Source of the DNA: Candidatus Eiseniibacteriota bacterium
Lineage (GTDB): Bacteria; JAFGKV01
NCBI GenBank assembly: GCA_025453925.1
Contig: JALOPK010000090.1
Coordinates: forward strand, 1-10,322
Reading direction: 5' to 3'
DNA: 10,322 bases
Made by a program: the position numbers and the translations under genes. The notes beneath the pieces are model-generated. The model did not search any database and was not told the origin of the DNA. It saw nothing but the letters and a program-made list of their open reading frames with translations. Within the stretch, counting starts at the first letter, position 1, and the number at the start of each line of letters is the position of its first letter. This document shows, one piece after another, positions 4,889-8,115 of the stretch.

Positions 4889-5821
4889 TCACACCCGCGG
4901 CAGGATCTCGATGGTGCGGTCGATGAGCTCCAGGTAGCTGAGGAAATCAGAACAGAACAACACCGTTTCGTGGGTCGGGCTCCGCCGCATCCGTTCCCGA
5001 GTCAACGTGCTAAGCCGGTCGGTGTGCTTCCTGCAATACTCCCGGTCGTACAGCGGCAAGAGGGATGTGACCATCCGCGCCAGTTCCCTGCGCAGCGCAT
5101 CGTGCTCGGCCCCGCGATGCTCGGGCAAGAGCTGCTGGTGGAGAAGCTGGTGCAGAACGATGGGAGTGTGGCGTCCCGGATAGTCCACCCGAGGGAAGCG
5201 CTCCTGGACGGTGCCGAGCCGGGCCAGGGGCCCGTTTTCCTCTCTGCTGGCCTGGAACACAATGAGCCACCGGTCCAGAATGCCCACCACATCGAGTTGG
5301 CAGTCAGCGCCGGCCGGGAGCAAGTCCCGAATGTGCAGCGCGGACGCTCCCTCCAGGGAGAGCAACATGGTGAGGGGTGGCTCCTGGCCGGGCATCCAGA
5401 GTGATCGCGTGGTCTCGAAGAGCTCCAACGCTCTGGTGACTGCCCCCGCGGTCAGAACCCGGTCCACCTCCACCAGAGCAAAGACCGCCTGGGTCGGTAT
5501 GAGCTGTGTACCCCGTGCGGTCGGCAAGCCGGCCCACACCCGGCTGTCGTACACGGTCAGCTTGCACGCGGGGCCGACGAGCCCGTCGCGGTTGAAAACG
5601 TGGCATGGAGCGACCCGCAGCCCCAGCGGAAGCATGGAGGCAAGCAGCCGCGCGAACAGCTCCTCCACGCTGGCTTGCCGTGTTTCAACTTCACGCAAGA
5701 GCTCCGCGACATCTTCCCACACGAGCCGGGCGGCGGCCTCGAGGTGGGTCGACAGATCGCGAGGATCTGCTGCCGATGGCTGTTCCCACGTTTCAGCCGC
5801 GTTCCGCACCAAGTCTCCCAT
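4889..5821 (-). CDS. DUF6602-like protein with degenerate nuclease-type motifs
   Basis: The protein has 310 residues with no signal peptide or membrane segment, so it is probably cytoplasmic. Residues 53-130 follow the layout I associate with DUF6602-type, restriction-endonuclease-like domains: a helix ending LLASMLPLGLRV, a G-x-V turn, a strand ending LTVYD (88-92), then PTQAVFALVEVD (109-120) and a helix. In active PD-(D/E)XK folds the strand carries an aspartate and the next one reads EVK. Here those positions are K87 and VEVD (K replaced by D120), so catalysis is unlikely. Residues 150-195 look like an alpha/beta core (MLLSLEG, VVGILDRWLIVFQA). The C-terminal part (220-308) is helical, with HQLLHQQLLPEH. 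The start is supported by GGAGAAGG (complement of 5827-5834). It follows the upstream gene by 48 bases and is probably its operon partner. The DUF6602 link is by eye; an unrelated fold is possible. Confidence 0.7.
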   Translation of the reverse strand: MGDLVRNAAETWEQPSAADPRDLSTHLEAAARLVWEDVAELLREVETRQASVEELFARLLASMLPLGLRVAPCHVFNRDGLVGPACKLTVYDSRVWAGLPTARGTQLIPTQAVFALVEVDRVLTAGAVTRALELFETTRSLWMPGQEPPLTMLLSLEGASALHIRDLLPAGADCQLDVVGILDRWLIVFQASREENGPLARLGTVQERFPRVDYPGRHTPIVLHQLLHQQLLPEHRGAEHDALRRELARMVTSLLPLYDREYCRKHTDRLSTLTRERMRRSPTHETVLFCSDFLSYLELIDRTIEILPRV

Positions 5822-5869: not shown

Positions 5870-7636
5870 CTAGGGCAATGTATGCAAACTCCGGGCCTGC
5901 CCGCGGCGCACCAGCTCCAGGACCGCCTCTAGCGCGCGGCACGATCGTGCGCCTGACCGCTTCTGCCGTTCCTCAATCAATGGTATGGCTGCTTCGCCTG
6001 CCTCCACAAGGCCGCCAGCCGCGCTCACGGGTACGCCAGCCTCGTGCGAGTCAACAAGATCCAGGAGACGCTCGATCGCTTCCTGGGAGCCCATTCGCCC
6101 CAAGGCGCCTAAGGCCGCACATTGCACGGAGAGCGAACTGTCGCGAAATGCAATCGCGGAAAGCTCCGCGTGCGCTTCCTCGAGCCCCAACCGGCCGAGC
6201 GCCACGGCCGCCGCCTCACGGGAATAGGCGCAGTCGGCCTTTAGCATGCTCACCAGATAGGGCCACGACGCCTGGCCCATCAAGTCGATGATCCCTTCCG
6301 CGCACCAGGTGGGCAGTGAACGCGGTCGGCAATCGCTGCGGATGCAGCCCGACCCTGCCATGGCCAGAAGCCCGGGCACTTCCGCCTCCCTCACCCTGGT
6401 CAGAGCGAGGACCAGCGCCCGATGAAAGGTGCCGTTGCCGTGGAGCCCGTCGCGCGGCGCGGCCTGGTAGGCCTCCCACAGAACATCGCGCAGATTGCCC
6501 GGGCGGATCGCCTCAAGCGCGGACAGAGACGCCTCCCGGACCAGAGCATCCTCATCCCTCAGGGCGGCGACCAGGACCTCGATTCTGTCAGGCTCCAGTG
6601 GAGCTCCGATGAGCTTTCTCACCGCGATGCGGCGGATCGCGGCCAGGCCGTGCCGTGACAGGGTTACCAGCGGCTCCACACTCTCGGGGTCGACGATCCC
6701 TTCATCCGGCGCGTGGAGCAGGAGCCGCTGCACGCTGTCGAGCCCGGCATGCGAGAACGCGACCGGTTCGATGGTCTGCATGCCCTTGATGTGCCATGCG
6801 AGACCACGCCAGAGCAGTTCCTTGGCCGCTCCGGGCGTGTCGAACTCAAGCTCGGACTGACTGCCGAGCGGATCGAGGCACAACGCCTCCTGCTCGAAGC
6901 AGACCGCCGCCTCTTCCAGTGCGCCGGCATGCACCGTGAGAATCGTCGCCGCCCACCGCAGGAAGGCACCAGCGTGACGGCGCCTCTGTGCCCAGGTCGT
7001 CGCCGTAGCGGCCAGTTCAGAGGCTCGCGTGGCCCCATCGACTGACAGGTCCGCGTAGAACCGCTTGTACGCGCCGAAACCCTGCGCAACGTAGGGATCC
7101 TCGCGCCATTCCAGCCCTGAGAGCCCGGAGGTCGTCGCCGCATGAGACCACGAAAGCGTTTCCAGGAGGCTCCGTGCCACGGTCACGGCCGGCGGCGTCG
7201 GGTCCACCGCACCGGTACCGATCACCGCGACGAAACACCCCTCATCGTCTGGAGGCTTCTGAGTTCCTCCCCCCATGACCATATGCCCCGCGCCCCCGAC
7301 CCACACCCAGACCGCGGGCCGGCGGGACTCACCGGCAGCCACAACCGCGGTTCTGGCCTCGGACCACGACACGCATCCATTGTGGAGAAGCTCCGGCTCC
7401 CATCCTTGCGCGCGGAACAGCCACGGAAGACGGGAGATGAACAGCCATGGCTCAACCTCCCGCGCTCCCTCCGGTCCGGCAACAGAGAGAAAGGCGAGCC
7501 CCGACAGGCCGGACGCGCACTCTGGAGAAAGCGGGAGCCGGGGAGTTGACAGGGTCGAGGCGAGGATGCTGGGCATCGGGTCAGCGGCAGCGGGGGAACT
7601 TGCGATCGCCAGCGACAGTAGTACAATGGGTATCAA
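5870..7636 (-). CDS. Exported protein: C39-like cysteine-peptidase fold joined to HEAT repeats
   Basis: I choose a TTG start at 7636, giving 588 residues. GAGGAGGA lies four bases upstream, and the start overlaps the previous gene's stop as TTGA. The frame stays open to 8005, but that extension overlaps the LiaF-like gene and reads as shadow. The N-terminus (IPIVLLSLAIASSPAAA, cleavage near A18/D19) resembles a signal peptide but lacks the usual basic residues. Residues about 35-195 look like a papain-like C39/BtrH-type domain: SPEC (C40), GAGHMV (H118), then a strand ending VDP (D145) would be the Cys-His-Asp triad, and a later YVAQGFGAYKRFYADL segment resembles that family. From about residue 315 to 580 come some six or seven HEAT-like helix pairs (RIEVLVAALRDEDALVREA, AELSAIAFRDSSLSVQCAAL). 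C431, C436 and C445 are clustered and may form disulfides. Substrate and role are unknown. The HEAT call is solid; the peptidase call is tentative. Confidence 0.78.
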   Translation of the reverse strand: MIPIVLLSLAIASSPAAADPMPSILASTLSTPRLPLSPECASGLSGLAFLSVAGPEGAREVEPWLFISRLPWLFRAQGWEPELLHNGCVSWSEARTAVVAAGESRRPAVWVWVGGAGHMVMGGGTQKPPDDEGCFVAVIGTGAVDPTPPAVTVARSLLETLSWSHAATTSGLSGLEWREDPYVAQGFGAYKRFYADLSVDGATRASELAATATTWAQRRRHAGAFLRWAATILTVHAGALEEAAVCFEQEALCLDPLGSQSELEFDTPGAAKELLWRGLAWHIKGMQTIEPVAFSHAGLDSVQRLLLHAPDEGIVDPESVEPLVTLSRHGLAAIRRIAVRKLIGAPLEPDRIEVLVAALRDEDALVREASLSALEAIRPGNLRDVLWEAYQAAPRDGLHGNGTFHRALVLALTRVREAEVPGLLAMAGSGCIRSDCRPRSLPTWCAEGIIDLMGQASWPYLVSMLKADCAYSREAAAVALGRLGLEEAHAELSAIAFRDSSLSVQCAALGALGRMGSQEAIERLLDLVDSHEAGVPVSAAGGLVEAGEAAIPLIEERQKRSGARSCRALEAVLELVRRGQARSLHTLP

Positions 7637-8115
7637 GAGGTCCTCCTCAGACTCCTTGCGACGAGGTAGATCCCACCGCCGATCAACACCACCGGCCAGT
7701 ACCGCCAGAATGCACTCTGGCGGAGGAGCACCACGGCGCCAAGCAAGACGAGCCCAATCCCCGGCAGTAGGAACATGCCTCCTCCCGGGCCGACGATGTA
7801 CATGGCAAGGAAACCCAGGCCGGGTGAGATGACCAGAGCGGGCCAGAGGGTTCCCATGAGACTCCATCCCATCTGCACGCAGGCCTCGAAAACGCCCCCC
7901 GCGACGATCAGGATGGACGCCGGCATCAACAGAACGTACTGTGAACGGTCGGAAACAACCATTGCAAGCAGTGCCAGACCGAAGAGTATGATGAACCACG
8001 GCCACAACTCACCCAGACCGAACCCTGCACCGAAGTTCCTGAGGAGCAGCATCACGCCGACGATCATGAGCACGACGCCCATGATGTCGCGCTTGGGGGT
8101 TCGAACCGGTTCCAT
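7633..8115 (-). CDS. LiaF/LiaI-like (DUF5668-type) membrane protein with three hairpin repeats
   Basis: The protein has 160 residues, nearly all membrane-embedded: about six hydrophobic segments at 11-27, 36-54, 59-78, 89-107, 112-131 and 138-153. Three units repeat the LiaI/LiaF-type pattern of a helix, a short loop and a W-P at the head of a second helix: WPWFIILFGLALL (38-50), WPALVISPGLGFL (91-103) and WPVVLIGGGIYLV (140-152). Family members sense or report cell-envelope stress (LiaF inhibits the LiaS kinase in Firmicutes), but the soluble C-terminal domain of true LiaF is missing, so a signalling role is only inferred. Start: AGGAGGAT (complement of 8121-8128) sits five bases before the ATG at 8115. 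An in-frame ATG at 8172 has no such site. It is first in a minus-strand set and its stop overlaps the next start. Confidence 0.85.
   Translation of the reverse strand: MEPVRTPKRDIMGVVLMIVGVMLLLRNFGAGFGLGELWPWFIILFGLALLAMVVSDRSQYVLLMPASILIVAGGVFEACVQMGWSLMGTLWPALVISPGLGFLAMYIVGPGGGMFLLPGIGLVLLGAVVLLRQSAFWRYWPVVLIGGGIYLVARSLRRTS
7641..7648 (-). promoter_or_regulatory. Shine-Dalgarno site that fixes the TTG start of the HEAT-repeat gene
   Basis: On the minus strand GAGGAGGA ends four bases before the TTG at 7636. It lies within the last codons of the LiaF-like gene (encoding L-R-R-T). With the TTGA stop/start overlap this indicates translational coupling of the two genes. Confidence 0.75.

Follow-up and report, generated by a model that had tools for sequence, protein, structure and literature searches.

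The gene examined here raises the question of whether its product, in which a domain resembling the C39 peptidases appears to be joined to HEAT repeats, acts by cutting or by binding. The gene lies in a DNA stretch of 10,322 nucleotides, which we refer to as the window, and its features and neighbors are listed in Table 1. An earlier note, made from this one sequence, had read residues C40, H118, and D145 as a possible catalytic triad of C39/BtrH type, placed behind a signal-like N terminus and in front of a HEAT array.

Table 1. Positions of the studied gene, its parts, and its neighbors in the window
Feature	Positions	Strand	Basis
Studied gene: 588-aa protein with hydrophobic N terminus, predicted degenerate C39/BtrH-like domain, and HEAT array	5870..7636	-	Translation; orthologs L031:1-1710 and L032:5929-7725
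Hydrophobic N terminus, residues 1-18 (MIPIVLLSLAIASSPAAA), possible signal peptide	7583..7636	-	Sequence
Alpha/beta part of predicted degenerate papain-like (BtrH/C39-superfamily) domain, residues 20-160; nucleophile position P20, His/Asp missing	7157..7579	-	Alignments, model
Helical subdomain, residues 161-312, common to unnamed family (DPYxAQGFGAYKR ... RRxAxxFLRW)	6701..7156	-	hhalign alignment spans subdomain; structure match
HEAT-repeat solenoid, residues 313-580	5897..6700	-	Pfam HEAT_2/HEAT/HEAT_EZ; alphaRep profile and fold matches
Upstream gene, LiaF/LiaI-like multi-TM protein	7633..8115	-	Pfam PF18917 6.4e-12, PF22570 2.4e-9; ATG at 8115, longer frame reaches 8172
Downstream gene, 310 aa, DUF6602/PD-(D/E)xK NucC-like, motif residues replaced	4889..5821	-	PD-(D/E)xK and NucC profile matches

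The frame starts with a TTG codon (positions 7636 to 7634) that lies five bases 3′ of an AGGAGG sequence (7642 to 7647) and shares bases with the stop of the upstream LiaF-like gene in the overlap TTGA. Orthologs were found in both other Fermentibacteria species searched, at 61% identity (L003, which is L031) and 47% identity (L004, which is L032); the N terminus of the L031 ortholog is cut by a contig end, such that the window protein and the L032 ortholog are the complete ones. The L032 ortholog starts with ATG and overlaps the upstream stop as ATGA. The order FAD-linked oxidase, LiaF-like gene, studied gene, and DUF6602-like gene was found in both the window and L032, and the last two genes of that order were found in L031. 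We conclude that the open frame is a real gene, as indicated by its TTG start, its orthologs, and its conserved neighbors, and that the gene order around it is conserved. A profile of the three N-terminal domains (N-domains) detected no ortholog outside Fermentibacteria among 386 genomes, and a scan of the genome contigs recovered the two known orthologs and none further. Two HEAT paralogs from the same genomes (L002 and L018) were set aside as HEAT proteins that do not carry the N-domain; their frames end in a stretch that by eye resembles a J domain (HPDV).

The HEAT array of the earlier note was borne out, as Pfam HEAT_2 matched at 1.6e-16 (60.8 bits against a curated cutoff of 27.7). PADLOC matches of the protein were confined to the HEAT part, and Pfam and NCBIfam searches of the three orthologs returned HEAT-type or helical-repeat families only, apart from a single stray match to Ago_Mid in one of the three. 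The Pfam profiles that the note had named for the N-domain gave no match: peptidase C39 and C39_2 (PF03412 and PF13529) were absent from an hmmscan of all three orthologs, and BtrH_N (PF14399) did not pass its curated cutoff for the window gene. Profiles of the N-domain, A4, and A6 (defined below), searched against PDB sequences, likewise gave nothing meaningful.

A relationship of the N-domain to BtrH was detected through an intermediate family. The lead was a generic BtrH-like sequence used as a probe, and the evidence is limited to the real loci that it fetched. The probe fetched real proteins from two genomes, and profile searching extended the family to 16 of 386 genomes; an alignment of 21 proteins of this unnamed BtrH-like family (L048 to L075) is here called A6. 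When the Fermentibacteria N-domain was compared with A6 by hhalign, the two matched at 97% (E 7.9e-11) in an alignment of 252 columns (about residues 27 to 290) that ran across both the alpha/beta and the helical parts. The match scored 79.4; controls made by reversing the alignments, by shuffling columns 30 times, or from five unrelated alignments scored at most 22.4. A6 in turn matched BtrH_N proteins at 99% (E 2.7e-18) over 306 columns, a full-length relationship, and the merged profile recovered, from other genomes, proteins that are BtrH_N beyond doubt (5e-5 to 7e-4). Direct comparison of the N-domain with BtrH_N proteins alone was weak (4.7%), and thus the link is transitive through A6. 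BtrH_N has been described as close to C39 in a review of papain-like proteins (PMC10318531). We conclude that, at the level of sequence profiles, the N-domain is homologous at a distance to the BtrH/C39 papain-like superfamily and that this similarity stands above controls over the whole domain, by way of A6.

Structure prediction agreed with the profile result in part. The full-length model (mean pLDDT of 72.8) ran in the order helix, helix, two short helices, strand, helix, three strands, helical subdomain, and HEAT solenoid, a secondary-structure order that fits the papain-like superfamily. With VIA-align, residues 18 to 299 of this model matched AziU3 (8gs1_B) with a Z of 12.9 and an rmsd of 6.3 over 240 residues; for models built mainly of helices, chance alone can produce a Z of about 13. 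The N-domain modeled alone was of low confidence (mean pLDDT of 62.7) and matched AziU3 (Z 10.9, rmsd 7.2, 209 residues) and CtaG (Z 8.6, rmsd 5.4, 213 residues) over the whole domain. A Foldseek search of the PDB using only the N-domain gave nothing significant (best E of 0.2), and C39 exporters were not among the structural matches listed, which excludes nothing. The low confidence of the N-domain model, and the fact that its other fold matches are helical bundles that mostly cover only the second half of the domain and dominate the search, would fit a domain that simply continues the HEAT solenoid as irregular helices and is not papain-like. Such an arrangement is improbable, however, as hhalign related the N-domain to the HEAT part at only 0.3%, against 97% for the BtrH-like family, and four strands were predicted in the right order. 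The earlier suggestion of a C39/BtrH-like fold class fused to HEAT repeats is backed, at a distance, by both the profile-profile comparison and the whole-domain matches to AziU3 and CtaG.

Membership in a superfamily that does include thiol enzymes, together with a residue order and rough spacing that fit in the window protein, could indicate an active thiol enzyme that uses C40, H118, and D145. All three residues are present in the window protein, but none is retained in the two orthologs: in the three-species alignment C40 is C/A/T, H118 is H/G/R, and D145 is D/E/S. Residues 20 to 160 are otherwise 58% and 43% identical between orthologs, and thus the three residues proposed as catalytic belong to the positions that vary freely. 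Moreover, three alignments placed C40 on the second helix, away from the C39/BtrH nucleophile position, where it lay opposite the BtrH motif "CFGLGxGLGF" and the A6 motif "GxTGHAF". Since neither C40 nor H118 is conserved, the catalytic reading fails by the earlier note's own standard, and an active thiol enzyme built on these residues is hardly credible; an active peptidase of this design was rejected because of the ortholog sequences.

The columns at which BtrH_N proteins carry their catalytic residues gave the same answer. In a combined alignment, 9 of 11 BtrH_N proteins had Cys in the nucleophile column, and each of the 23 unnamed-family proteins that were checked had Ser or Thr, whereas the three Fermentibacteria proteins have P20, R, and D there, right where the predicted mature domain begins. 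Those three proteins have nothing in the His and Asp columns, and the unnamed family likewise lacks the His. Neither part of the BtrH_N signature, the Cys in PGxHCxST or the His before the (V/I)xxGYD strand, was found in the Fermentibacteria N-domain. Because the nucleophile column is P/R/D, the His and Asp columns are empty, and C40 sits on helix 2, the alignments indicate that the triad is lost from the protein and that the N-domain has lost thiol chemistry in every register examined.

Other members of the wider family were noted alongside. The unnamed family is related to BtrH_N and has no Pfam model; in its larger frames the domain is fused to PDZ (L049 and L050) or to a sigma factor-like region (by eye, L063), and it occurs in tandem in L056. 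The genes at L049 631-1188 and L050 617-1177, next to those for the PDZ plus BtrH-like lipoproteins, resemble by eye those for bacterial microcompartment shell proteins. No common neighbor was seen by eye in the short flanks of the A6 genes, and none of the relatives outside Fermentibacteria carried HEAT repeats, as judged from frame length and reading. L096, a 451-amino-acid frame on the plus strand and probably an exported relative, keeps the His (HGFFVIVGYD), has DSGSMAL at the nucleophile segment, and may be an intermediate linking BtrH_N to the unnamed family. A 665-amino-acid frame elsewhere in the genome that the window comes from contains a weak BtrH_N match at 1e-4 (L046, G000:C152:1979-2212, minus strand).

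Loss of thiol chemistry would also be compatible with an enzyme of the same fold that uses non-thiol chemistry or a bound small molecule, with a site formed from the invariant W64, W72, W79, H85-N86-G87, and H165. The aziridine synthase AziU3, which is the best whole-domain structure match, is an example of this fold supporting chemistry that differs from a peptidase's; many polar and aromatic residues of the N-domain are invariant in the three orthologs, and at the nucleophile position the sister family carries Ser/Thr without exception. Here, however, that Ser/Thr is missing, and no biosynthetic gene cluster was evident in the window or in L032. Defining a site would take more than three sequences, and with three orthologs only, functional residues cannot be separated from shared ancestry. 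A new catalytic arrangement in the N-domain is possible, and we consider an enzyme of this kind unlikely. Because every catalytic residue is lost, the protein most likely binds rather than cuts. We favor, with reasonable but incomplete confidence, a noncatalytic and probably exported scaffold that combines a degenerate BtrH/C39-like binding domain with a HEAT solenoid and has a LiaF-like partner.

As a scaffold, the protein would be assembled as follows. The N-terminal 290 residues would be a worn-down BtrH/C39 papain-like superfamily member with an alpha/beta core and a helical subdomain, the nucleophile segment having been trimmed back to the processed N terminus and the His and Asp positions having gone. 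The old pocket of the N-domain would be kept and would bind a ligand or a protein, and the HEAT solenoid would offer a second binding surface for a partner. A hydrophobic N terminus is present in both complete orthologs, with a different sequence in the L032 ortholog (MILFMFMILFSSATS) and a putative boundary between AAA and D or between ATS and D; the n-region before the hydrophobic stretch contains neither Lys nor Arg. Export by this putative signal peptide is plausible, and a location outside the cytoplasm is probable. Translation appears to be coupled with that of the LiaF-like protein, which may be the membrane partner and may either tether the complex there or relay information about it. 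The earlier note had taken a cysteine cluster at 431 to 445 as fitting an oxidizing compartment: C436 and C445 are indeed invariant in the three species, but C431 is lost in L032, and since two cysteines elsewhere in the protein, C134 and C506, are invariant as well, the cluster is no special evidence for disulfides. The DUF6602-like neighbor reads CKLTVYD...EVDR, versus CDVIIYD...QVKS in the canonical member L105, and thus it too has lost motif residues; each of the three species has substitutions for the Asp and Lys of the motif (CKL, EVD), which makes it a second degenerate enzyme in the gene group. Like the LiaF-like protein, this NucC-like protein would be co-expressed with the studied one.

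Known systems resemble the protein only in part. BtrH_N proteins (the butirosin acyltransferase BtrH and relatives) share, via the unnamed family, the whole-length order of an alpha/beta domain and then a helical subdomain, and the BtrH motif above matches CASGLSGLAF, but they retain Cys, His, and Asp and have no added HEAT repeats. The unnamed family is closest by profile and shares a GxSGxAF motif, GxxAYxxW, and an RxxAxxFL helix, but it has Ser/Thr at the nucleophile position, no HEAT repeats, and other fusions. AziU3 (PDB 7wuw and 8gs1) and CtaG (PDB 9qvj and 9qvo), the best whole-domain structural matches, are about 7 to 12% identical to the domain, and both are enzymes of antibiotic pathways; CtaG has been proposed as a peptidyl transferase (PMC6772006). 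BtrH_N proteins and AziU3 show weak sequence similarity spanning the histidine region. Peptidase C39 of bacteriocin exporters belongs to the same superfamily as the N-domain, BtrH_N having been placed next to it (PMC10318531), but the 588-amino-acid protein has no ABC transporter, triad, or Pfam match of that kind. ARMC3, an armadillo-repeat protein containing a papain-like domain without catalytic residues, offers a eukaryotic precedent (PMC10318531) from an unrelated lineage, compared by published description only. The literature library that was searched contained no work joining BtrH with HEAT repeats or with peptidase C39.

A tempting triad call from one sequence is thus corrected. We tentatively suggest, as a possibility at somewhat less than even standing, that the protein and its sister family form an unrecognized BtrH/C39 branch that abandoned thiol chemistry, its Cys first becoming Ser/Thr and then disappearing, and that now serves as a ligand-binding module in different carriers, namely PDZ lipoproteins, a sigma factor-like region, and HEAT scaffolds. 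A BtrH-related family that has no Pfam model and in which the nucleophile Cys is uniformly Ser/Thr offers a testable branch that left thiol chemistry. Fermentibacteria is a little-known phylum with almost no described biology, and here a papain-like domain would have become a noncatalytic part of a bacterial HEAT scaffold.
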